Below, piece by piece: positions 11,881 through 62,622 of a stretch of DNA of 64,000 bases (its first letter is position 1; every line of letters begins with the position of its first letter). Position numbers and translations under genes: made by a program. The notes under the pieces were generated by a model that ran no database searches, was not told the origin of the DNA, and saw only the letters and a list, made by a program, of their open reading frames with translations. This DNA is from a virus: positions 1 through 64,000 of IMG/VR virus record IMGVR_UViG_3300027782_000034, one strand, 5' to 3'.

Positions 11881-12294
11881 TCATTTACTTGGTCCGCTAG
11901 TGGGCTGACGACTTGTGCTACCTCTACGAAATAGCCCACGAGAAGTAGTAATAGGAAAGCTTGGAGCTATTTCCATTGCTTCACAATTTTTATCTTCAAC
12001 TAATTTAGGGGCAATAGGTTCAGCCGAATTAGGCGACCCTATTAACCGATTTACATTCGTGTCAATCTTTTGCAATATTTTTAACTGTTCTGCTAAACTA
12101 TTTAGCTGTATTCGCTGACTTTCCGCAATAGCCTCTCCCAGCTCTTTATTAAAAGTAGCTTCCACGCTTGCCGGTAGCTCCGTAGATGTAGAAATTACAT
12201 CAGCGGAGCTAGTGGGGCGTAGTACTATAATGCTTACAAAACAGATCAATCCAAACGCAAATGCATTAAGCGTAGTCGTTAATAGATTTTTCAT
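11881..12294 (-). CDS. Membrane-anchored coiled-coil protein
   Basis: 137 residues with an N-terminal membrane anchor (about residues 8-26), then a Ser/Thr-rich linker, a helical coiled-coil-like region (residues 45-85) and a disordered Arg/Ser/Pro-rich C-terminus. This layout resembles inner-membrane spanin components but also many other anchored proteins. It overlaps the papain-like protease gene upstream by 4 bases, so the two are made together. Confidence 0.5.
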   Translation of the reverse strand: MKNLLTTTLNAFAFGLICFVSIIVLRPTSSADVISTSTELPASVEATFNKELGEAIAESQRIQLNSLAEQLKILQKIDTNVNRLIGSPNSAEPIAPKLVEDKNCEAMEIAPSFPITTSRGLFRRGSTSRQPTSGPSK

Positions 12295-13112
12295 TCGGGT
12301 TTTAACCTCATTTTGTAGTAAGGAGAATTGTTATACCAGTCAACTGGTTCAGCTTCCTTGTTGCCCATAAGCCCAATTGCAGCAGTGTCAGAATACTCTA
12401 TCATTTGTTTCCAAGCTTTAGGCGTAATCAAATAACCGCCATCTGCCCATGAGTTGGCAGCTCGAAGATTGCCATCTTTGTCGTACCCTAGCACACACAT
12501 TGCATGCCCACCAGAACTACGGCCTGGGTGGTAGCTACGCACAATGCGGTCATCAGGTAGGTACCCATCGTAGTAAGCGATACCAAAATTAATTGCACCA
12601 CCGCCACCGATAAAGTCCAAGACTTTGTCATGGTCATCCGGAACTTCCCACAAGGATAATGCTTTGTAAGGAAGGGCAGCTGCGTAATTGGCTGAGCTTA
12701 ATATGGCTTCTCGCTCTGCTCTCCTAGGGTAGCTATTAGGATAACCTGTAAGCACCTCAGGGCAGCAGCCATACTCGAGCCCAACTTGGCATCCTCCGGC
12801 AATCGTGGAGCCATCGTCTGAGCCAAGAAGCCCATCTAATTTTTGGGAAGAAAGATAAGCAAAAATCTCAGATAGCTGTATGGTTTCACCTCGTACCAAA
12901 GCTAGTCGCTCTAATACTGAGCTAAGTGCATGCCCTTGGCAACTTCCAATTTGCCCTTGGTCTTCATTACGATGCCACTTAATGTCTACTTCCGCAGGGC
13001 GGGCAAATGCTTGCCATAGTGGGGTAGACATTGGAACACGAGAAAGATTACGGATAAAGCTGTAGTCTTCTTTTTCTTTTTTCCAATTACCCGACATTTT
13101 TGGTTCACTCAT
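12291..13112 (-). CDS. Papain-family (C1A-like) cysteine protease
   Basis: 273 residues. The catalytic set of papain-like peptidases is visible in order: oxyanion Gln52 and nucleophile Cys58 in DQGQIGSCQGHA, His203 in SGGHAMCVLGY and Asn220 in AANSW, with the usual spacing. A GGCQVGLEYGCCPE segment matches the middle of C1 proteases where a D-G/EYG pattern is common. No signal peptide or long prosegment is present; the first ~40 residues could be a short pro-region. It overlaps genes on both sides by 4 bases. Known roles of C1 proteases are peptide-bond hydrolysis; the target here (virion maturation, cell-wall cross-links or a host protein) is unknown. Confidence 0.8.
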   Translation of the reverse strand: MSEPKMSGNWKKEKEDYSFIRNLSRVPMSTPLWQAFARPAEVDIKWHRNEDQGQIGSCQGHALSSVLERLALVRGETIQLSEIFAYLSSQKLDGLLGSDDGSTIAGGCQVGLEYGCCPEVLTGYPNSYPRRAEREAILSSANYAAALPYKALSLWEVPDDHDKVLDFIGGGGAINFGIAYYDGYLPDDRIVRSYHPGRSSGGHAMCVLGYDKDGNLRAANSWADGGYLITPKAWKQMIEYSDTAAIGLMGNKEAEPVDWYNNSPYYKMRLKPE

Positions 13113-13465
13113 TTTGCGTAACTCCTTAATAGTTTTTCATGTGCCTTGGCAGACCATCCGCCTTGTTTATCAAAATAATCTTGTTCGCTCTTTGCTAGTT
13201 CTTTAAAAGCAGCTTTGCGAGCAGGTTCTTGACCGGCTGCAATAAAGTCCCAAGCTTCTTGTTCTGTTTTAAGTTCACCAGCTGCCAGCTTATTTGCAGC
13301 AACTTGGGCATGGGCCCTCCACAGCTTCTCATACATCGCAAATACTTGCTTAGGTGATGCTGTGGAGGTAGGTGGAACAAATGCAGTGGAATCGCACTGA
13401 AAAGGCCCAACCAATAAAATTAAACCAAAAACACCACTCAGCAATCCAAGGTATCGTAAAGACAT
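13109..13465 (-). CDS. Small exported or membrane-anchored protein
   Basis: 118 residues. An N-terminal hydrophobic segment (about residues 5-21) is followed by PFQC, not a convincing lipobox, so I call it a signal anchor. The remainder is a charged, mainly helical domain of ~90 residues. It overlaps the papain-like protease gene by 4 bases, suggesting a shared role such as delivery or inhibition of that protease. That link is inference from context. Confidence 0.5.
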   Translation of the reverse strand: MSLRYLGLLSGVFGLILLVGPFQCDSTAFVPPTSTASPKQVFAMYEKLWRAHAQVAANKLAAGELKTEQEAWDFIAAGQEPARKAAFKELAKSEQDYFDKQGGWSAKAHEKLLRSYAK

Positions 13466-13482: not shown

Positions 13483-13878
13483 TTATTTTTTTACTTCTTC
13501 TGGTTTAACTGCATTAGGGGCACAGTCATTGCGTCTGGCTAATTTAGCTTCCGTAATGGCTACCTGTGCTTCTGTCATTTCAGCTTTTGCATACTCCCAC
13601 CAGATGGAAGGGTTAGCATTAGGTGAAGTTGCTTCAATAATTTTAAGAAATTCCCCAATACCCGCAGGGGCGGGGGCATCGCTGTTGCGGATCTTAGGGG
13701 TAGGAGTAGGGGCGGGACTAGGAATATTCGGAATTGCAGAAACAAACCGAGAGATTAAATCTTTAATCCAAGGAATTGCAAAAAAAACTACTCCAATTGC
13801 CAGCAACCCAACAGCTAAGATAGGTTTGACCCAGCTAATTAACGCTGCCAAATCTATTACAATTTCACCTATAATCAC
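13483..13878 (-). CDS. Small single-pass membrane protein
   Basis: 131 residues. It starts with GTG at 13878 with an AAAGGAGG ribosome binding site nearby. One or two hydrophobic segments lie at residues 8-38, followed by a Pro-rich linker (PSPAPTPTPK) and a helical C-terminal domain. A holin-like or anchor role fits the location between the metalloprotease and the papain-like protease, but no holin family is recognised. Confidence 0.5.
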   Translation of the reverse strand: MIIGEIVIDLAALISWVKPILAVGLLAIGVVFFAIPWIKDLISRFVSAIPNIPSPAPTPTPKIRNSDAPAPAGIGEFLKIIEATSPNANPSIWWEYAKAEMTEAQVAITEAKLARRNDCAPNAVKPEEVKK

Positions 13879-13890
13879 AGGACACCTCCT

Positions 13891-14793
13891 TTAAACACAA
13901 GTGACAACTAATTTCTGCCCTTTGTGCAGCTCTACGGCTAATGTATTTTTTGCTTCCTTCTTAACCCCTACTGCATTTTCATTTTTCCCATATAGTTTTT
14001 GAATGCGCTTAATATCATCATTATCTTGGGGACCGCTTACAAAAGGGTTATAGTATGGGGCCATTAGTGCTCCAGCATTCTTTGAATGATCTAACCCAAG
14101 CAAATGTCCAAATTCATGACAAGCGACATTGAGCATCATAACTCCACGATCCGTAGGCTGGGAAATCCAAGTTTCATCTAGATCGAACCGCATTGTCAGT
14201 TGCTGGTCATTACCTTTTGGCATGTAAGCCCAAGCTAAAGTCCCACCTCTCCCATCAAAATTATGCTGTATTCCCTTTCCTGTAGCAATCGCAATGTCTG
14301 CTTTCTTTGCATCTTTGATACGAGTTATGTTTAAACCGCACACATCGTCCCAAGCTTTAAAGGCTGCAGCAAATATTTTATCTTGGGTGGGTTTGCCTAA
14401 CCCTGTGACATATTGTTGAACAGCAAAAGTAAGCCCTTGCTTGTTCCATTGATTACGCTGTTTTTCAGCAATGTCTTTAGCTTCCATGAATTGAATGTGT
14501 TGTTTATTTTTAGGATCAAGCTTGTCGGGGCAGCCACAGCGTGGGGTTTCCATAGCACGCAATGTCTTGGGTCCAATAACACCATCAACTTTTAAATTAA
14601 ACATACGCTGAAATGATTTTACTGCAGCATCAAGTTTGGCATAATCTATGTTCTTTAATAAGTCAATTGCGACATATCCAAAGAAGGTAAGATAGTCCAT
14701 TGCAAAATGCATTTCTTGTGGAGAGTTCTTATCGCTTCCATTTTTCTTAAATAAGCGAATAGCCTCAGTCCTACCCTTGTGCTCTAGTGACAT
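13891..14793 (-). CDS. Matrixin (matrix metalloprotease-like) with peptidoglycan-binding prodomain
   Basis: 300 residues. Residues ~52-82 form a PG_binding_1-like domain (FNLKVDGVIGPKTLRAM). Directly after it comes PRCGCPD (84-90), the matrixin cysteine switch in which Cys86 would bind the catalytic zinc and keep the enzyme latent. The catalytic domain has GRGGTLAWAY (structural metal region), FDLDETW, the zinc site HEFGHLLGLDH (226-236) with His226, His230 and His236 and Glu227, and a Met-turn at ALMAPYY. This is the full set of matrixin hallmarks. There is no signal peptide. It sits directly after baseplate J, so a virion-tip protease acting on the host surface, or a self-activating lysis enzyme, are both plausible inferences. 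Confidence 0.9.
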   Translation of the reverse strand: MSLEHKGRTEAIRLFKKNGSDKNSPQEMHFAMDYLTFFGYVAIDLLKNIDYAKLDAAVKSFQRMFNLKVDGVIGPKTLRAMETPRCGCPDKLDPKNKQHIQFMEAKDIAEKQRNQWNKQGLTFAVQQYVTGLGKPTQDKIFAAAFKAWDDVCGLNITRIKDAKKADIAIATGKGIQHNFDGRGGTLAWAYMPKGNDQQLTMRFDLDETWISQPTDRGVMMLNVACHEFGHLLGLDHSKNAGALMAPYYNPFVSGPQDNDDIKRIQKLYGKNENAVGVKKEAKNTLAVELHKGQKLVVTCV

Positions 14794-14807: not shown

Positions 14808-16469
14808 CTACTTTGCAACATAAATAGTTGAAGCAATATTAACTGTTACCTTGGATATTTCTGTAAAAAACTGTACAGTTTTAGCCGTGACCATTTTACT
14901 CGGTTGGTCTGGTATTATCAATGAATCTGAATCTCTTAGATACTGCATAGTGCCATCTGGATTGCGGATCCGCCCAAACAAGTCTAAATTTGTCACGCTT
15001 AAATTATCTTGTAAAAATCCATGTACTGCCTCGATAATGCGTGATCCATCCAGTCTGCCGATGAAGTCTGTGTTGTTTATTATGTCTACAACTGCTGTCT
15101 GGACCGCAGCAATAGGCGGAGAGACATCCCCAGCTGCTTTATTAATGGTTAGAGTAACTTCTACAAAGCAAGGAACAGGAGCCTTGACCAACACATCGGC
15201 GGCATAGCTTCGTACATCTCGGCTTCCTAGTAACTCTTGAACTTCTCGGATAAGTGGAGTACCTACCACATCGCAAAAGTATTGAGCTGTCTGGCCTACA
15301 CCAAGACCGGTAATAGAAGTAGTGGTGTCTATGAAACGAATAACTGCAGCTTGAAACGCAGAATAAGCACCTTCTGCCACAGTAGTAATATCAGGTAAAA
15401 ACCCGCTTTCAGTTAGATCGTTAGATCGAGAATCACTGCTGGGTTCAAATCCGGAATTTAAACCTTCATCTGCAATCTTTCTTATTTTAGTGACTTCATA
15501 AAATCCAGGTGCATCATTCTTAGCCAATGCAAATTGCCAAGTACTATTAGTAGCATTAACTTCAACGCAGACTGCTGTAACTAGTAAGCGTGTGCGCTGC
15601 AGTGGCACTTGCCCACGGATATACCAATCGACTCTACCGCCGTAGCTGATAGGGAATACTGTGTGCCTATCTCGCAGCATTTCTGCGTCACCATACCCAA
15701 TAATCGATTGATTAGTAATTGAATCAAATGTAGGGATTGAGCGAAGAAAAGACCGCATATTAGTGCGATTAGATAAAGTCTTTGCAGCAATACCCAACTG
15801 AAGTTGTTGTAGCAATTCTTCGTTAGTCTCTGTTCCTATCCCATCGCTAAAAGTTGAATTAGCATAGCTAGTCACATAACTTACAATGGTGCGATTAGGC
15901 ACAATAATATTGCCCGCACTTAATTTGTAGGCAGGTCCAACCTCTGCTGCTTCTACTTCAATAGTAAATGCATAGTTACCATTACTTAATGGCTGCATTA
16001 GTCGGTCTGTGTCTGAAGATACTTGAGCGTCTACCGCACGAGATGTAAATGTTTTTATAGCTAAATATCGTCTACCAGAAGATTCAAATACAAAGTTTAC
16101 AGGAATAACAACGGAGCGGGCTTGGCTTAACTCAATTGTAATAGCCCCAGTAGCTTTAGTTCCTATTTTACGAGTTATACCCCAGTTGGACAGCACATCA
16201 TTAACCACCTCGTTGTCTGCTATTGTGGGGTTAGCTTGGATTTGCTGTAGGCTGCGTGCAGACTGGTAACGGCGTAAGCTGGTTCGAATTGATGCTTCTA
16301 ACACTGCATGATAATAGGCAACAGTATCTTTAAACACCCCACGCTTTAGATCTAGGCTAGGGTTAAGTTCTTGCAGCTGCGTAACAAGTCGGTCTAAGAG
16401 TTGTTGCACATCTGCTGCGTTTAATGTAGCTAGGTTAGCCAAATCAGAATTAGAAAAACTAAATGCCAT
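14808..16469 (-). CDS. Baseplate J-like wedge protein (gp6-type)
   Basis: 553 residues. The pattern is that of the baseplate J family: a helical N-terminus, NWGITRKIGTKATGAITIEL then a hydrophobic strand VIPVNFVF, an AAEVGPAYKLSAGNI segment with a following SFSDGIGTETNEELLQQ-like helix, and a C-terminal alpha/beta part with PVPCFVEVTLTI. In contractile phages this protein forms the wedge ring around the hub. It follows the gp25-like gene by 11 bases, the order typical of myovirus baseplates (W/gp25 then J/gp6). Confidence 0.75.
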   Translation of the reverse strand: MAFSFSNSDLANLATLNAADVQQLLDRLVTQLQELNPSLDLKRGVFKDTVAYYHAVLEASIRTSLRRYQSARSLQQIQANPTIADNEVVNDVLSNWGITRKIGTKATGAITIELSQARSVVIPVNFVFESSGRRYLAIKTFTSRAVDAQVSSDTDRLMQPLSNGNYAFTIEVEAAEVGPAYKLSAGNIIVPNRTIVSYVTSYANSTFSDGIGTETNEELLQQLQLGIAAKTLSNRTNMRSFLRSIPTFDSITNQSIIGYGDAEMLRDRHTVFPISYGGRVDWYIRGQVPLQRTRLLVTAVCVEVNATNSTWQFALAKNDAPGFYEVTKIRKIADEGLNSGFEPSSDSRSNDLTESGFLPDITTVAEGAYSAFQAAVIRFIDTTTSITGLGVGQTAQYFCDVVGTPLIREVQELLGSRDVRSYAADVLVKAPVPCFVEVTLTINKAAGDVSPPIAAVQTAVVDIINNTDFIGRLDGSRIIEAVHGFLQDNLSVTNLDLFGRIRNPDGTMQYLRDSDSLIIPDQPSKMVTAKTVQFFTEISKVTVNIASTIYVAK

Positions 16470-17717: not shown

Positions 17718-18455
17718 TTATCTCGCAAGGAAAGGGGATAATTTTTGTTCTTGATCCAGCAATTGCTGTATCTTAGTTTTACGCTGGGTAATCGCACCTG
17801 GGCTGCGATTAAGCTTAGCTGCAATCTCTTGATTCGATAGTTTTTTATTTCCACGCATTCCCAAAGTCAGTTCCATGACACGCTGGTCTAAAGGACTAAG
17901 TCCTTGGTAAACCACTTCGCCCCATAGATCTGCGCTGGCTTGTTGGTTAGGAATTACACTTGGAGCACCGCCCGCTAATGGGTCAATTGCATCTAGTCTT
18001 CCTGTGTTAACTCCGGGTTGATAACTCCGAATCTTTGCAAGTCGAGGCATAGCTATCCCTAATTTATCTGACAGTTCTGCGTCAGTAGGCTCTCGACCAA
18101 GCTCATCTGACAGTTCTTGTGTGGATCCATGTAACCTTTGATTCTCTAGTAATATGCGTTCGGGTACGCTTATTACTTGATGTTGCTGTTGGTTGATCCT
18201 ACGCAGCCCTTGCATTTGGTTTAATAAATGAGACTGTAACCGAGACCGCTTAGGATCGTACTTACGCACTGCGTCCAATGTTAAAAGCTTGGCACGGCTA
18301 GAAGTTAATGGGCTATCTGCCCCATACATCTTGACCCCCTTTTGTACTATTGGATCAAGTGCTTTCAGTAAGGCAGCGTTGCCTTCTGGTGTTTGATTCT
18401 GCTGCCAGCTTTGAAATGCTGGTTTATATTCGTCTTCTAAATAATCGTCCATCAT
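17718..18455 (-). CDS. Sigma-70-family-like transcription initiation factor
   Basis: 245 residues. Region 2 is visible at residues ~30-90 (KALDPIVQKG, then AVRKYDPKRSR matching the classic FDP-x-R-G element). Region 3 follows at ~97-143 with ISVPERI and ELGREPTDAELSDKLG, and region 4 at ~184-233 with LSPLDQRVMEL and a helix-turn-helix, NQEIAAKLNRSPGAITQRKTKI. Order and spacing are those of group 2/3 sigma factors. The aromatic residues of region 2.3 used for promoter melting in sigma-70 (F, Y, W, W) are replaced by L, H, N and Q at ~73-80. Start is ATG-ATG with AAGGAG upstream. Its likely partner is the phage RNA polymerase encoded at 52788-62622; the host enzyme is the alternative. Confidence 0.8.
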   Translation of the reverse strand: MMDDYLEDEYKPAFQSWQQNQTPEGNAALLKALDPIVQKGVKMYGADSPLTSSRAKLLTLDAVRKYDPKRSRLQSHLLNQMQGLRRINQQQHQVISVPERILLENQRLHGSTQELSDELGREPTDAELSDKLGIAMPRLAKIRSYQPGVNTGRLDAIDPLAGGAPSVIPNQQASADLWGEVVYQGLSPLDQRVMELTLGMRGNKKLSNQEIAAKLNRSPGAITQRKTKIQQLLDQEQKLSPFLAR

Positions 18456-52787: not shown

Positions 52788-55700
52788 TTATTTAGAACTT
52801 TCTGCCCATCCTCGGTACTCAGCAAGGTCCTCGTTATTAGTTTTCAATTGGGCTTCTAGCTTTGCCCTTTGTTCAGGAGGAAGAGAAGTATCTCGAAGCT
52901 GTGCAGTAACTGCCACAATGTTTTCTTTAAGACCGCTAACCCGATTGCGTATATCCTTGCTGAATAATCCCTTACCCGAGGAACCGCTTTCTCGGTCATA
53001 AGTACCCAGCATTGCCTTACGCTGCGCCTGTCTATTTAATAACTGCTCCTGCCGTGCTTGACCTACTGCATCTAATTCACCTTTAGCTTTTAAATCTGCT
53101 AGCTCTGTGTCCGTAGCTGCAACCGAATTTTGCATGGCATCTCGGAATTTGTGTCCGCCACTCCCAAACCAATTCTGCTGACCTAATCTCCACTTAGCTG
53201 TTTCGTCTGCCGTATTTTCTTGTCTAGTTTTAGCGTCTCCTATTTGTGCATCGATGCCAGCTTGCTCTTGTTTATTTTGTTCTATCATGGAGGGAGCCAT
53301 GATATTTGTATTTTGCGACTCTTGCTGAAGCTTAGCTTTTTGTGCTTCTAAATCTTTTTGCTTTGCTACTTCCATTGCGTTAACTTTTGATTTGTCCACA
53401 ACCGATGCACGAGAAATAGCATCAGTTCCAGTTACTTTATCTCGAATAGCTTCAGCACCTATCCCAGCTTGCTCCCCAATCATCTGTGCAGTCTGAGTTG
53501 TACCGCCTGCTATTAGCTGTGCGTTAGCCACTGGGTTTAAAATTTGAACAGGAGCTTGCCACAATGTGTGCAACCCATCTTTACCTGAAGCAATGTTTCT
53601 TATATTTTGTGCTGCGTCGTTAGTTGTGTTATCCCAACCCTTATTGTAAACATCGTAACCGACACTCCCAGTTTCTAAAGCTATTCCAATACCAGGGGCT
53701 GCTTTAGCCAATGTTTTGTAAGTCGTGGAAACTGCTGGCATTACTTTACTAAGTAAACCTCCGGGTGCAGCTGGTATTGGTGCAGCTGGCATTGGTGCTT
53801 TGGGTATTGGTGCTTTGGGTATCGGTGGAGTAGGGGTAATAGGTGCTGGAGCTGTAGGTAGCGGTGCTTTAGGCACTAGTGCAGTAGGCGCAGGGGGAGT
53901 AGGTAATGCCTTAGGCGGTACGATTGTATTTTTTATAGCGGTATAGGCCGCCGGTGCATGATCTACAGCTGTAAATATATCTGGACCAGCTTTTGATGTA
54001 GCCTCTGCAGGAACTGCTTCTGCTGAAGATGCGGGTGCAGATTCCGCAGATGTGTTACTACTCAACATCCCGCCTTGATTTGTAGCTGAGTTGTAATCTC
54101 CACTGGGCATAATTGATTGCCCATTTTGATTGTTATTCCCAAACATATTAAACAAATTACCAAACATTCCACCGCCACTACCGCTTGTGGCTAATCGCTG
54201 CGAAGGCCCAGAGTTAAATAACTGAGACATGTTATTACTACCCCCTGCCATGCCTCCTAGCATCATAAGTGCACTTGTAGGATCTGCTCCGTTTAACATC
54301 TGACCAGTTTGCTGTGCAAAAGTATCGTTTTGCATCAAGTTACTAAATTGGTTTGAACTTGGGGTAGTCGGTGCAGTTTTGGGGGCTGGAGTAGGAGAAG
54401 GCATAATGTTTGTATTAAGAGGCTTAGAAACTGGTGACATACTGGTTACAGCAGGTGGCTTAGAGACAGAAGGTGGCTTAGACACAGAAGGTGTGCTATC
54501 TAATCCTAGCTTAGTTTGCCCAGGGGTAAAACGCCCGCCAAAAAAAGGAGCACTGCTAGGAGCTGTAGGCTTTGCCGCAGCAGGAGTAGAAGGAATAGGG
54601 GGAGGAAGTGGAGGTAATGCCGGTAGCTCATAACTAGGCTGAGGTTTTATTACCGCATGGTTTTTACCTTCTCCAAAATCAAGACCCATTGCTAAGCTTG
54701 GAACAAAGCTTGTACCTCGTTCTTCGCTGATAGCCCCATGAGTCACAGAGTCTAAGAAGCTTTTCTTTAGACCAGACCCATACATTTGTGTCATCCAATC
54801 GGGATCATGTTGCATTTGATACAACCCACGAACCATGTTTGGTTCAAATGGCGGTGGGTTCTTATGCACTGGAATTTCATTAATTTCAAAATCTTCAAAA
54901 TTCTTAAGCATAGAAGGTCGAATCTTGGTCCCAATAGTGTAGTGCAGTACAGGGCGCTCTAGATACTGTCCTAATGCACGCTTAGGAGTTAACCGCTGGT
55001 GGTCTTCTCGTGGCTTGTATGTGTGTTCAAGCGTAGAGTAAGGAACAACATCGTCAGGCACATGGTCATCTGTTTCTTCTGTCAGCCTTACATGGTTGAT
55101 AAGACCTCGGGCTAACACCTCAATATTACGTCTGTGCCCAAACATTCCGCTGTCACCCATCGCCTTGCGGAACTCATTAACAAAATACCGCCTACCCTCT
55201 CCAATTCCTTTATGTTCGGTAATAGTTGCTGGGTTAGGAATTCCTGAACTAATTACATCACCAGCCTCTACCTCATCTCCTTTTTTTACTTTAAGCTCAA
55301 ACCCAGCCCCTACATAATGTTGTTTATCCCCAATGGTGACATAGCTCCCGCCCGCAGGGGCTTCTTCAATACGCTGCACCACTCCATCCATTAACGAGTG
55401 GGCTGCCCCTCCTTGCATTTTCTTAGGAACTTGTACTAATTGGTTTAAATACTGAAAACCGCTAACAGCTTTTTCTTGTCCGGCCACGCCCCCCGAATGC
55501 TTTGCAGATAACTGACCTTGGCTAATCGGTTCACTTAAAGCGTGGGCAGCCTGTAACCCAACTTGCTCGCCAAGCCCAGGCAGCTTTCCAGTTTCTCTAA
55601 TACCTACATCTCTAGAATAAACACCGCCATCGGGAGACCCGCCCACTAGGGCAGATCTCACTAAGATTTTAGGTGTACCAAGCCGTTTTAAATGATTCAG

Positions 55701-56507
55701 TATTTTTGGAGTAAGTGGAGTATTTCTAGCGTAAGGACCAACATTACGAGCTAGCAATGCCCCTTCATTGTCTGGATCATCAGTATCCACCACTAATCCA
55801 CGGATAGGTGCGTCGTCTGCCTCTTCGGCATCTTCTCCGGTGACTACCAATCTATGACTAGTTTGATTAAGTTGTTTGTTAAAGAATCCAGCATCTTGTG
55901 TGGCAAACTTAGTTGCCATAATGCCTTTGCGTGCTCCGTAGGTTCCAGCCCAGTACTCGGCAGGAGACAGCCCCTCGCTGTAACTTCGCAGCACAGGAAT
56001 TGGAATTACATCGTCACGCTGGTCCGAATACAGCATGTCTGAACCTAACAAACTAGTTAGATTCATAGACTTACCACGGGTACCCGACATAACCTGCATA
56101 CCGAGAGGGTTCTTGTCTTTTAACGCTTCTGCAAGTATTTGTTTTTGCTGTTCTGGACTTTCCTTGCCAACTGCACGAATAATCTGCTCGTTTCGCTCTT
56201 GGTCTGTCAAAGAATCGTCAGCTAGGATATTAGTAAGAGAAGCTCTAACCTTCTGGCGGGAAGCTATTGCAGATTTACTTACTTGCATGTGACGAAGCCC
56301 AAACGACATACCACCCTGCTCTTGTGCTATACTTTGACCAAGATTACTTAGCTTAAAAGATATATCTCGGTAATTCTCTGGGTGCTGCCGCGCCACTTGC
56401 TGTAGTAAAGATTGCAACCCTTTTTTGTCTAGCACACGATGGGAGTCTCTCAACTCTTCCGGAAGGACATCATTAATTAACAGTTGTCCAACGGTCGTAT
56501 TCAACAT
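52788..56507 (-). CDS. RNA polymerase beta' subunit, C-terminal half, with long extension
   Basis: 1239 residues. Residues 1-625 align by eye with bacterial beta' from just after the active-site domain to its end: NTTVGQLLINDV (TTxGRxxxN), a secondary-channel region with GMQVMSGTRGK, GLSPAEYWAGTYGARKG, the bridge/trigger region GEQVGLQAAHALSEPISQGQ with His337 in the trigger loop, and KKGDEVEAGDVIS and YFVNEFRKAM near the end. The four Cys of the bacterial second zinc site are absent. Residues ~625-1239 are foreign to RpoC: a Pro/Ala/Ser-rich linker, Met/Gly/Asn-rich stretch, then helical Gln/Lys-rich sequence of virion-protein style. Works with the product of 58156-62622 as one core enzyme. 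Confidence 0.93.
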   Translation of the reverse strand: MLNTTVGQLLINDVLPEELRDSHRVLDKKGLQSLLQQVARQHPENYRDISFKLSNLGQSIAQEQGGMSFGLRHMQVSKSAIASRQKVRASLTNILADDSLTDQERNEQIIRAVGKESPEQQKQILAEALKDKNPLGMQVMSGTRGKSMNLTSLLGSDMLYSDQRDDVIPIPVLRSYSEGLSPAEYWAGTYGARKGIMATKFATQDAGFFNKQLNQTSHRLVVTGEDAEEADDAPIRGLVVDTDDPDNEGALLARNVGPYARNTPLTPKILNHLKRLGTPKILVRSALVGGSPDGGVYSRDVGIRETGKLPGLGEQVGLQAAHALSEPISQGQLSAKHSGGVAGQEKAVSGFQYLNQLVQVPKKMQGGAAHSLMDGVVQRIEEAPAGGSYVTIGDKQHYVGAGFELKVKKGDEVEAGDVISSGIPNPATITEHKGIGEGRRYFVNEFRKAMGDSGMFGHRRNIEVLARGLINHVRLTEETDDHVPDDVVPYSTLEHTYKPREDHQRLTPKRALGQYLERPVLHYTIGTKIRPSMLKNFEDFEINEIPVHKNPPPFEPNMVRGLYQMQHDPDWMTQMYGSGLKKSFLDSVTHGAISEERGTSFVPSLAMGLDFGEGKNHAVIKPQPSYELPALPPLPPPIPSTPAAAKPTAPSSAPFFGGRFTPGQTKLGLDSTPSVSKPPSVSKPPAVTSMSPVSKPLNTNIMPSPTPAPKTAPTTPSSNQFSNLMQNDTFAQQTGQMLNGADPTSALMMLGGMAGGSNNMSQLFNSGPSQRLATSGSGGGMFGNLFNMFGNNNQNGQSIMPSGDYNSATNQGGMLSSNTSAESAPASSAEAVPAEATSKAGPDIFTAVDHAPAAYTAIKNTIVPPKALPTPPAPTALVPKAPLPTAPAPITPTPPIPKAPIPKAPMPAAPIPAAPGGLLSKVMPAVSTTYKTLAKAAPGIGIALETGSVGYDVYNKGWDNTTNDAAQNIRNIASGKDGLHTLWQAPVQILNPVANAQLIAGGTTQTAQMIGEQAGIGAEAIRDKVTGTDAISRASVVDKSKVNAMEVAKQKDLEAQKAKLQQESQNTNIMAPSMIEQNKQEQAGIDAQIGDAKTRQENTADETAKWRLGQQNWFGSGGHKFRDAMQNSVAATDTELADLKAKGELDAVGQARQEQLLNRQAQRKAMLGTYDRESGSSGKGLFSKDIRNRVSGLKENIVAVTAQLRDTSLPPEQRAKLEAQLKTNNEDLAEYRGWAESSK

Positions 56508-58155: not shown

Positions 58156-61100
58156 CTACCCATTTAAAATTCGTACCGGATCGTTGATTGAAATATCTCC
58201 GCGCGCATGTGCTCGCCTTACATCTTGTATGTTCTGAAAAATCCGTACTGGTCGATCAGATTTACGAGAAGGATCTGTACCCATAAACAAACCCCCAATG
58301 TATTCATTAGCAGGGGCATGCATAACAGATTTCATATCCCCTATGCTAAAAAGATTACGACTAGGTAACAAACGATCAAAAGCCTCTTGCCTAGCTTTTT
58401 CCGTACTTGGCACATGATAGTTCATGGTGTCGCCATCAAAGTCAGCACCAAACCCTTTTACAATTAAAGGGCTCACTTGTAAGGTATTTCCTTTAGTCAA
58501 TCTTGGTCTCATTGCCATAATCCCAAACTTATGCAAAACAGGAGCACGACTAATATATACAGGACGATGCTCCATCTCTTCAAGCAAGAACTTGCGTGCT
58601 ACTGGAGTCTTATCTTCTAATTGAGTACGAGCCTGTAGCATAGACATGCCTTGTCGCACCAATCTTCTAGTAACAAATTTCTCATAGACCTTAAATGCCT
58701 TGTCTTCGGGTAGCCCTACCGAGTCCATGTCCAATTCCGGATTTGGAGTAATTACCGCTCGGCCCACATTGTCTACTGTAGAAGAAATCAGTTTACGTTG
58801 CACAATCCCAAACTTAGGACTTGCACCAAACACATTTTTTAAAGCCCCACGAACATTCTTCTCTTGGCTTTTTGCACTAATCGGATCTCCTAGACCAGTC
58901 ACCGCTTTAAATGCTTGATAGGTGGAAAGACGCTCCGATCCCGAAGCCTCTTCCCCTACTTCTTGCTGCATTTTGCTAAAATTCTGATTAGCCTCAAACA
59001 GTTCTTTGTAAAGGTGATTAGCATCGTTAACCAATGGCATGCCGTTGCTCATCAAGCTAACTGGACGAAACATTGGGGGAAGAACTGGAACTTTGGTCAG
59101 CATGTAGTCTGCAGGCTGCAAATTAAGTTTCTGTGCCGATTTAAAATAACCAAGTTTACGAATTGCCTCATCCCGCTGAGCCCCTCTACCCGCCGCAATA
59201 ATAGCCCGAGCTTTAGGAATTTCTGCAGCAGGATTAAGATCTGCTAATGCTTTTTGTAACGCTTTCGTACCGGTTCCATATTTCTCTAAAAATTCTGTGC
59301 CAGCCACAATACCTTCAAACTTTTTCTGTGTTAGCCCAAGCATATGACGGATAGGTTCTTCCATTACTGGGTTAGGTAAAGGTTCGTGCAAACGCATAAA
59401 CGACCATCGAGTGCCACCATGCCCGCCGGTCTTAGCCTTGTCAAACAAGCCACCATTAATCTCTTTAAGCTGGTTGCCCCACTCCACTCCATCGGCACTG
59501 CTAAGCTCACGATCCCCAGCTAAGTTATCGATATCCTTGTCCGTTAATGCCATAATCTGAGTCTGCGTTCCCTGCTTGACTACATTAACACCAGCAGATT
59601 GTAACTGGGCTACAAACTTCTGATAAGCAAAAGGAACCTTAGTAACTTTAGGGTTATACCCCGACATGTACTGCATCCAATACTGATCATTCTTCTGCCT
59701 TCTAACTGTGAAGATATCTTGCAGTGTGTCCGTGGCTCCGTGAGATAGCAAGGCATTAGCATCCATTAGCCCAATACGCTTAGAACCTTCAATGCCACCT
59801 TTGGCTGGGGCATCTTCCATCGTGTAAGCACCACCGCTCCTACCTTGTCCTTTAGACTCAGAAGTATGATGTAGCTTCATAAAGAAACGACTACCAGTTG
59901 CTATATTTTTAATTTTTTGTTCTTTAGATGGGTCTATAATGTCTTCTAAGTCCGACAAACCTTCTTTAGCCAGTTCTTGCATGACCCATTGAGTCATATC
60001 TTTTTTAGTATCAAAATCATCTACTTTAATCGGCATACCACGCTTAGCCGCTATTTTACCTAGAAACAATTCAGACATTTGAGCAGGGTTAGTTCGACTA
60101 ATAATACCAAGAGGGTTAAGCAGCACTTCAAAAGGTAACTTATTTGAATCGTGTGGCATTTCGCTATCTGGAATAATGTCCGCAATAACACCTTTGTCCC
60201 CATAACGACCAGATAACTTATCACCAACTTGCGTTGGAGATTCTGCTTTAACTACAACGACCGGACCCTTCTTACCCATCACCACATCAGTAACAACACC
60301 AGTATCGTGATGCTGCCAAAGTACGGCTGCATCGTTGAACCCGGCTTGACCCTTCTTATGTACCTTGTTGTATGCATTTTCCTTTTGTGTAATCCCTAGT
60401 ACCAAAGGATCTCCAAAATTAACTACTGTGCCTGGTTTGATCACTCCTTGATCATCTATGTTCGCTAATATGTCTTTCTTGAATGTAGCTGGAAATGCTT
60501 GAATAAATTGTCTTTTACCAACTTGTGTTTTGTCATCCACTTCCAGCTCATGCTGATACATATGAGAAGAGGCTGTCTTCTTTGCAAAACTTTCTGAGAT
60601 GACAATTGCATCTTCAAAGTTCTTACCCTGCCATGGGATATAAGCGGTACGTGCATTTGTACCTAAAGCCATTGTTCCTGTCTTGTTTGTAAAGTTAGAA
60701 CTTGCTAACAACTGGTTTGGCTTAAATGTGTCGCCAGGTTGAACTGCAGCGGTTTGATGAAAAAAGGTTTTACGATTAAAAGGAAAGTTGTGATAAAGTT
60801 CGTGCGTTTCCTCGGTTCCATCTTCATTCCGCACTTTAATCTCTTCATCTGTCACGGAGGTAACTGTGCCCCCTTGGGAAGCTCTTAAAGCTCCCATCCC
60901 AGCCGAGTATAGCTCTTCATAACTTTGTTTGCCACCTGTGCGGGGAACCGCTGACTGTACTAAAGGAGCTTCGGGAGAAGCTAAAGGTAATGCTTGTGTA
61001 GTCATACGAGATGCCATAACTAATCGCTGACCCTTTACCTGACTCTTCATAGGGATAACATTGGAAAGAGGATTAAATGCTTCTTCCATGTCAGGAAGCT

Positions 61101-62622
61101 CTAAATCAATGCTTGATTTAGGTACATGTAACATCTTACCGCCACGCATCGCCACTACACGGCCATCTTCGCCTTCTTGGCTTCCGGGAAAACCGACAGT
61201 TAGGTCTGCTACATCTTGAGGAGTTTTAAAAGTCATTTCCCCGTTACGCATATCCTTAAACTGAGCATAGAGCTTACCATCACTTCCCTTACGAGATCCC
61301 CTAGCCAGATAAGTGTCCACCCCAACACGACCCGACTCGGGAGTACGCACAGGATCGACATAACCCAGCATACTTGACTGTACATTTCTGGATTCCATGG
61401 GAATTGCATCCATAGAACCAATACCACCCTCACCTACTCGAGTAACAGACATTGTCTTTTCATAAATGTCTGTAGGATTAATTTCTTCAATAGCTTGTCC
61501 CAGCCCGCTGCCAAGCAAAGCACTTTTCACCTGTTTGTCTAAAGCAGAAGATGGCATTGAGTTTAAATCACCTTTGCCCGACATCTTCCAAAGTAGGTTA
61601 CGTCGTACCCCGCCTTTATCTCGGGCAATACGCTCTGAAAACAAATCTTCTGGACCTACAAATTGCTGAAAGTGAAGTGCATCTCTGTCATCCGGATCCG
61701 CTTCTTTCCTATTAACCTTTATCAGCTTTTTAGTAATGTCCATCAATGTGTCTAGTGTGACACCTGAATGTGGGTTTCCCAGCGTGCGACGATTTACCTC
61801 GGGATCCATTTCCATCTTAGAAAACTTAGCAAGCAATGCTTGTTTTTGTTTTTCTTCTGGCTCAGCTAGTTCTTTAGAAGAAAGAAACATGCCTTTAAGC
61901 CGTGTGTATTCGGATGCATCATCCGAATTGTAATTAGAAGCGAATAGATCTTTACCCCAAGCTTCCTGCGCCTGCTCCGAGGTAACTCCCATAGCTTTTA
62001 ACAAAGGAGTTAATCCAACTGAAGCTTGCCCAACCTTAAGCTTAAATTTGCCTTTCTCGGGATCTAAGAAATAACGCTGTGATACACCTTTCCCAGGCAT
62101 CACATTAACATGGGATTCAATTTCACCATTGTTCCGTGTGCGGGTGTAAACTCCGGGCAATAACCGCTGTTGATTTCTTAGAATGTACTCAGTGCCGTTG
62201 TTGATAAAGGTGCCACGATCCGTCAAGTGAGGCACAGTGGCAAGAACTGATTTCTTAGAAGCGATTACTTGTTGTGTTGCGTTATCCATTAACTCCCAAG
62301 TACCTTCTAGCCTACGTCCTTGGGATCTACCATTAAGAATGGCAGCTTTCTGCTCCTGTTTGCTAGCGGTATCACCATCACGGTAATTTACTCCAGTTAA
62401 ACTAAGCGTATGCCGATCATTAGCCATAGGCTGTAGCTGCTGAGCTGCTTGCAGCACTCTATCGTAGATAATAGATCTGACCTTCTTAGTGTCATGAAAT
62501 TCATGAAAGCTAGGCAATGGAGTTGCGGGTGGCAATGGCTGCATCGGCTGTGCTAAAGGAGGTGTATTCCCTAGCAACGAGAGATTAGAAGAATCAAACA
62601 AATTAGATGAAAGTGGAAGCAT
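58156..62622 (-). CDS. RNA polymerase beta subunit fused to N-terminal half of beta'
   Basis: 1488 residues. Residues ~100-1000 are a full beta subunit: GTFINNGTEYILRNQQRLLP (protrusion/lobe start), SMLGYVDPVRTPES, TAYIPWQGKNFEDAIVISE (661-677), QVGDKLSGRYGDKGV (798-812), LNPLGIISRTNPAQ (835-848) and the C-terminal clamp-side GSKRIGLMDANALLSHGATDT. Residues ~1040-1488 are beta' N-terminal: GGLFDKAKTGGHGG where the zinc ribbon should be, PVLPPMFRPVSL, clamp helices DANHLYKELFEANQNF, PEDKAFKVYEKF, RPVYISRAPVLHKFGIMA and the catalytic GADFDGDTM (Asp at 1394, 1396 and 1398). The four zinc-ribbon Cys are missing. It ends at DPVRILNG, just before beta' residues continued by the gene at 52788-56507. 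Synthesises RNA from DNA; alpha and omega genes are not in this window. Confidence 0.95.
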   Translation of the reverse strand: MLPLSSNLFDSSNLSLLGNTPPLAQPMQPLPPATPLPSFHEFHDTKKVRSIIYDRVLQAAQQLQPMANDRHTLSLTGVNYRDGDTASKQEQKAAILNGRSQGRRLEGTWELMDNATQQVIASKKSVLATVPHLTDRGTFINNGTEYILRNQQRLLPGVYTRTRNNGEIESHVNVMPGKGVSQRYFLDPEKGKFKLKVGQASVGLTPLLKAMGVTSEQAQEAWGKDLFASNYNSDDASEYTRLKGMFLSSKELAEPEEKQKQALLAKFSKMEMDPEVNRRTLGNPHSGVTLDTLMDITKKLIKVNRKEADPDDRDALHFQQFVGPEDLFSERIARDKGGVRRNLLWKMSGKGDLNSMPSSALDKQVKSALLGSGLGQAIEEINPTDIYEKTMSVTRVGEGGIGSMDAIPMESRNVQSSMLGYVDPVRTPESGRVGVDTYLARGSRKGSDGKLYAQFKDMRNGEMTFKTPQDVADLTVGFPGSQEGEDGRVVAMRGGKMLHVPKSSIDLELPDMEEAFNPLSNVIPMKSQVKGQRLVMASRMTTQALPLASPEAPLVQSAVPRTGGKQSYEELYSAGMGALRASQGGTVTSVTDEEIKVRNEDGTEETHELYHNFPFNRKTFFHQTAAVQPGDTFKPNQLLASSNFTNKTGTMALGTNARTAYIPWQGKNFEDAIVISESFAKKTASSHMYQHELEVDDKTQVGKRQFIQAFPATFKKDILANIDDQGVIKPGTVVNFGDPLVLGITQKENAYNKVHKKGQAGFNDAAVLWQHHDTGVVTDVVMGKKGPVVVVKAESPTQVGDKLSGRYGDKGVIADIIPDSEMPHDSNKLPFEVLLNPLGIISRTNPAQMSELFLGKIAAKRGMPIKVDDFDTKKDMTQWVMQELAKEGLSDLEDIIDPSKEQKIKNIATGSRFFMKLHHTSESKGQGRSGGAYTMEDAPAKGGIEGSKRIGLMDANALLSHGATDTLQDIFTVRRQKNDQYWMQYMSGYNPKVTKVPFAYQKFVAQLQSAGVNVVKQGTQTQIMALTDKDIDNLAGDRELSSADGVEWGNQLKEINGGLFDKAKTGGHGGTRWSFMRLHEPLPNPVMEEPIRHMLGLTQKKFEGIVAGTEFLEKYGTGTKALQKALADLNPAAEIPKARAIIAAGRGAQRDEAIRKLGYFKSAQKLNLQPADYMLTKVPVLPPMFRPVSLMSNGMPLVNDANHLYKELFEANQNFSKMQQEVGEEASGSERLSTYQAFKAVTGLGDPISAKSQEKNVRGALKNVFGASPKFGIVQRKLISSTVDNVGRAVITPNPELDMDSVGLPEDKAFKVYEKFVTRRLVRQGMSMLQARTQLEDKTPVARKFLLEEMEHRPVYISRAPVLHKFGIMAMRPRLTKGNTLQVSPLIVKGFGADFDGDTMNYHVPSTEKARQEAFDRLLPSRNLFSIGDMKSVMHAPANEYIGGLFMGTDPSRKSDRPVRIFQNIQDVRRAHARGDISINDPVRILNG

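Follow-up and report, generated by a model that had tools for sequence, protein, structure and literature searches.

Identification of a matrixin gene with a cysteine-switch prodomain

The window analysed here is a 64,000-base stretch (bases 1-64000) of the IMG/VR virus record IMGVR_UViG_3300027782_000034 (172,719 bases). The record contains RNA-polymerase-like ORFs, a DNA polymerase, UvsX and DnaB and is that of a large tailed phage. The features of the locus, all on the minus strand, are as follows:

12291..13112 (-): papain-like cysteine protease (xylellain-like; 3ois, E 2e-14; catalytic Cys58, His203 and Asn220 kept)
13109..13465 (-): 118 aa protein with a hydrophobic N-terminus
13483..13878 (-): 131 aa protein with a hydrophobic N-terminus, the next gene downstream of the matrixin
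13891..14793 (-): proMMP-like gene (phage matrixin), 300 aa; PF00413 E 2.3e-36, PF01471 1e-9
13894..13983 (-): C-terminal tail, short and variable (residues 271-300); two short beta strands predicted at low confidence
14056..14070 (-): Met-turn ALMAP (residues 242-246)
14086..14118 (-): zinc site HEFGHLLGLDH (residues 226-236)
14524..14544 (-): cysteine switch PRCGCPD (residues 84-90; Cys86, Cys88)
14551..14697 (-): prodomain core matching PG_binding_1 (residues 33-81; Pfam 1e-9)
14808..16469 (-): baseplate J / wedge gene, immediately upstream of the matrixin (PF04865 1.9e-11, phrog_6 6e-21)

The 300-residue matrixin ORF begins 14 bases past the stop of the baseplate-J-like gene, with a strong Shine-Dalgarno sequence (AGGAGGTGG) just 5′ of its ATG. 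Residues 115-269 cover the full Pfam matrixin profile (PF00413, positions 1-159; 125.5 bits against a cut-off of 24), and both the HExxHxxGxxH motif, as HEFGHLLGLDH, and the Met-turn, as ALMAP, are present. A phmmer search of solved structures aligned residues 28-269 with the human proMMP-9 zymogen (E 4.7e-31), the alignment running unbroken through the switch. Taken with the Pfam E values (PF00413 2.3e-36, PF01471 1e-9), this excludes a chance match. The original prediction, a matrixin whose cysteine-switch prodomain is intact, is confirmed at the sequence level, the ORF reading as a full proMMP-like zymogen with prodomain, PRCGCPD switch, HEFGHLLGLDH and Met-turn. The signature had also been called complete, which holds for these elements; however, the four structural-zinc ligands are absent. 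The window protein has no hydrophobic N-terminus that would indicate a signal peptide (best 15-residue mean of 0.03, from a hydropathy check rather than a trained predictor).

PG_binding_1 occurs once in the 172.7 kb record, as the matrixin prodomain. The original prediction had the matrixin joined to a peptidoglycan-binding prodomain. A special fusion to such a domain was a view that we abandoned, as PF01471 also matches human proMMP-9 (with a score near the cut-off) and the Paenibacillus and Acidobacteriota proMMPs. MMP prodomains ordinarily have this PG-binding-like fold.

Predicted fold of the window protein

An AlphaFold2 model of the window matrixin, made with 12 phage sequences, had a mean pLDDT of 81.5 and a pTM of 0.80, with residues 171-200 and the C-terminal 30 residues being of low confidence. 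The top VIA-align matches of this model were MMP zymogens, such as proMMP-9 (5ue3_B, Z 24.3, rmsd 2.2 Å, 211 residues, model residues 27-269), and the prodomain and switch of the predicted model lie inside the range aligned with proMMP-9 zymogen crystals. Isolated catalytic domains and karilysin gave a Z of about 20 against the same model. The window protein is predicted to have the three-dimensional fold of matrixin zymogens. Given a switch prodomain and a predicted fold that fits zymogen MMPs, prodomain included, a latent zymogen, as had been proposed, is the natural reading, and sequence and model strongly imply latency through Cys86.

A family of phage matrixins

Pattern and profile scans of IMG/VR returned 21 loci. 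The window protein was compared with 18 of these, near-identical copies being left out (n = 19), and the carriers of the compared members are large phage-like contigs. Arg85-Cys86, the three zinc histidines, the catalytic Glu and the Met of the Met-turn are invariant in 19/19 members. The helical prodomain of L160 is gone and VPRCGCPD is kept near its N-terminus. When compared with its two closest relatives, the window gene has a dN/dS of 0.04 and 0.06, low in prodomain and catalytic domain alike, showing that it is under purifying selection. A single matrixin copy per record was found in 11 of the 12 records tested. Separately, a second matrixin gene without the cysteine switch was observed close to the switch-bearing one in two loci (L160:8934-9629, L159:6243-7589).

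Three traits set the phage clade apart at the sequence level, namely the loss of the structural-zinc ligands, a Cys-x-Cys switch in most members and no evident signal peptide. A second, structural zinc has been described for all MMPs (PMC7290392). Its ligands (His/Asp/His/His) number 0/4 in every phage member compared with 4/4 in human MMP1, 3, 9 and 10 and in the bacterial proteins L124 and L169; their loss marks a divergent branch that still belongs to the Pfam matrixins and retains the fold. The switch reads RC[GA]C in 16/19 phage members (the Cys-x-Cys motif is missing from L152, L157 and L159) and in 0/7 of the other cysteine-switch sequences compared (four human, three bacterial). No hydrophobic signal was detected by hydropathy check in the first 40 residues of 18/19 members. 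A proline-rich linker precedes the C-terminal tail in several members and L155 matches fn3 weakly, features that resemble exposed proteins; the tails gave no match to other ORFs of the loci. In the phylogeny that had been suggested as a check (32 rows, with thin bacterial sampling and several long branches), a branch with support of 90/95 separates the phage proteins from the human and bacterial rows. The phage matrixin is real and conserved, and on the evidence of the sequences and the model it is probably active and latent.

Gene neighbourhood

The baseplate cluster of the original prediction is borne out by the adjoining gene (PF04865/phrog_6). Baseplate J is followed by the matrixin on the same strand, with a gap of 0-31 bases, in 12 other records (L140-L149, L152, L158), some of which are near-copies; baseplate identity to the window across these records runs from 81% down to 39%. 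No baseplate gene recognisable by BLAST was found beside the matrixin in nine loci (L150, L151, L153-L157, L159, L160), the surroundings of which share no BLAST similarity and for the most part have no annotation. The synteny evidence for tail association therefore covers part of the family. Synteny with the baseplate gene suggests a tail role.

Downstream of the matrixin, three nearby genes encode hydrophobic N-termini, and the third gene downstream in the window encodes the papain-like protease. The papain-like gene is present in 6/19 records, near the proMMP gene in all six, whilst Trypsin_2 adjoins the matrixin in two records and is distant in three; as a general rule, a protease-cascade neighbourhood holds in part only. 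A 391 aa protein in L142, picked by eye as a second papain-like protease, gained no support from phmmer or profile comparison.

Comparison with known systems

Human proMMP-9, proMMP-2 and proMMP-3 (MEROPS M10A) have in common with the phage protein the prodomain, PRCGxPD, HExxHxxGxxH, the Met-turn and the predicted zymogen fold (Z 23-24). In contrast to them, the phage protein, at about 35% identity, lacks a signal peptide, a hemopexin domain and the structural-zinc ligands, and in most phage members the CG of the switch is followed by a Cys. The original prediction described the signature as best known from animals and plants, but cysteine-switch proMMPs occur in bacteria too. Examples are Paenibacillus sonchi plasmid WP_202677761.1 (L124) and Acidobacteriota L169, which combine the same PG_binding_1-like prodomain with PRCGxPD and a matrixin domain. 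Unlike the phage members, both have all four structural-zinc ligands and a long C-terminal extension, and neither has Cys-x-Cys. Karilysin of Tannerella forsythia is likewise a prokaryotic matrixin (catalytic domain Z about 20), but has a 14-residue prosegment and an aspartate rather than a cysteine switch (PMC6949598). The minimal L160 prosegment recalls mirolysin, which has a short cysteine-switch prosegment (PMC6949598).

Amongst viral proteins, the best BFVD fold matches were insect-virus MMPs (granulovirus, ascovirus, iridovirus); these are matrixins of eukaryote viruses, at about 20-28% identity and without a baseplate context. The phage-derived metzincin Mtz of Listeria, with its TIMP-like partner Tim, also ties a metzincin to phage genes and has cell-envelope effects; however, Mtz is secreted by way of a signal peptide and paired with a lipoprotein, and no cysteine switch is mentioned for it (PMC8235301). 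Matrixin-type catalytic domains in phage proteins are already in databases, and our literature searches found no phage matrixin with a cysteine switch. The window matrixin had no tblastn match amongst the isolated phages of INPHARED, plasmids yielded distant bacterial matrixins only, and neither Planctomycetota (392 genomes) nor Acidobacteriota (297) contained a phage-type member, the best matches being bacterial matrixins.

Proposed role and alternatives

We infer activity, virion location, trigger and substrate of the matrixin from the features above, and at about an even chance we favour a late, tail-associated latent protease whose prodomain would be released to allow cleavage of host envelope proteins. 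A zinc endopeptidase of matrixin fold would be made as a latent zymogen, without a signal peptide, among the late tail genes. Cys86 of the prodomain would fill the catalytic zinc position, keeping the enzyme off inside the producing cell, and the enzyme would most likely be borne on or near the baseplate. Displacement of the prodomain would be the on-switch, either by proteolysis or by oxidation of Cys86-x-Cys88 outside the reducing cytoplasm. The active enzyme could then cleave S-layer, outer-membrane or wall-linked proteins of the host at entry. The neighbouring papain-like protease, with its intact Cys-His-Asn triad, could release the prodomain, and a trypsin-like gene lies close to the matrixin in two other members. 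The Cys-x-Cys pair suggests redox release. In a more specific and rather improbable version, Cys-Gly-Cys would hold the zinc in the cytoplasm and a disulfide formed outside the cell would open the zymogen, possibly in a cascade with a neighbouring papain-like or trypsin-like protease; activity of the tail-borne enzyme would then be confined to the surface of the next host. The absence of the motif from L152, L157 and L159 limits this idea.

The same latency would also serve an enzyme of lysis and release, which would build up in the cytoplasm until small membrane proteins opened the inner membrane, when its activation and cleavage of the envelope would free the progeny. The three downstream genes with hydrophobic N-termini would fit a lysis cassette, and the sole PG_binding_1 domain in each of 12 large records is the proMMP prodomain. 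Amidase_2, Phage_lysozyme and SLT domains were found in 0/12 of these records and M23 had no match at the cut-off, although this absence concerns four families in records that may be fragments. A weak M23 match in the window record fell below the cut-off, inside an RNA-polymerase-like ORF. No catalytic domain of a known lysin family was found in the window matrixin, endolysin PHROGs matching only its PF01471-like prodomain. The constant position of the gene just after baseplate J speaks for a tail role instead, and we consider lysis unlikely, if still a serious contender. The gene order linked to the baseplate, and the presence within the cluster of another protease that is unrelated to the matrixin, would also suit one-time trimming of a tail or baseplate protein during morphogenesis, latency setting the order of assembly. 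However, thiol latency in a zinc enzyme would call for a trigger inside the cell, and the phage maturation proteases known to us act on heads and have other folds, making this a doubtful explanation. Lastly, the matrixin could be an accessory enzyme of bacterial origin that degrades protein outside the cell and has no tail role. Bacterial proMMPs with PRCGxPD exist (L124, L169) and bacterial MMPs are common (PMC12587646), but a signal peptide is not evident, the phage members separate from the sampled bacteria (90/95) and synteny with baseplate J is fixed; this reading is very improbable.

In animal MMPs, latency through a cysteine switch is textbook knowledge. The window virus and at least 18 related or similar ones have genes for self-inhibited proteases resembling the tissue-remodelling MMPs of animals. 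Many of these genes lie directly after one for the cell-piercing tail base, which suggests that the proteases are kept off until needed. Such latency may make a dangerous protease safe for phages to carry. A phage branch in which gene order is fixed, the structural zinc is gone and the switch mostly has a second cysteine is a natural test case for the release of latency. The history of how MMPs passed between bacteria and animals is unsettled and gains a viral branch here; one account of it does not mention phages or viruses (PMC12587646).

Other genes of the matrixin-bearing contigs

The window phage appears to encode its own multisubunit RNA polymerase, with large ORFs resembling the beta and beta-prime subunits at 52788-56507 and 58156-62622 (-). 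A Sigma-70-like factor (17718-18455, -) lies within the tail gene cluster and is kept in 12 related records. A ClpS-like adaptor, recognised by eye, sits beside the matrixin on the opposite strand in two loci (L151:8846-9202; L156:8891-9226, -). In four contigs that otherwise differ, the gene after the matrixin (L148:8960-10732, L149:8789-10417, L155:9153-11075, L157:9149-10888) encodes a secreted-looking protein of 540-640 aa that belongs to no Pfam family and has a conserved SCxxCH, possibly a c-type haem site. Small proteins with a CxxCH motif are also encoded in two of these contigs (L148:10743-11483, L149:10411-11181), and their weak match to Planctomycete cytochrome C (PSCyt1) hints at planctomycete hosts for these phages.
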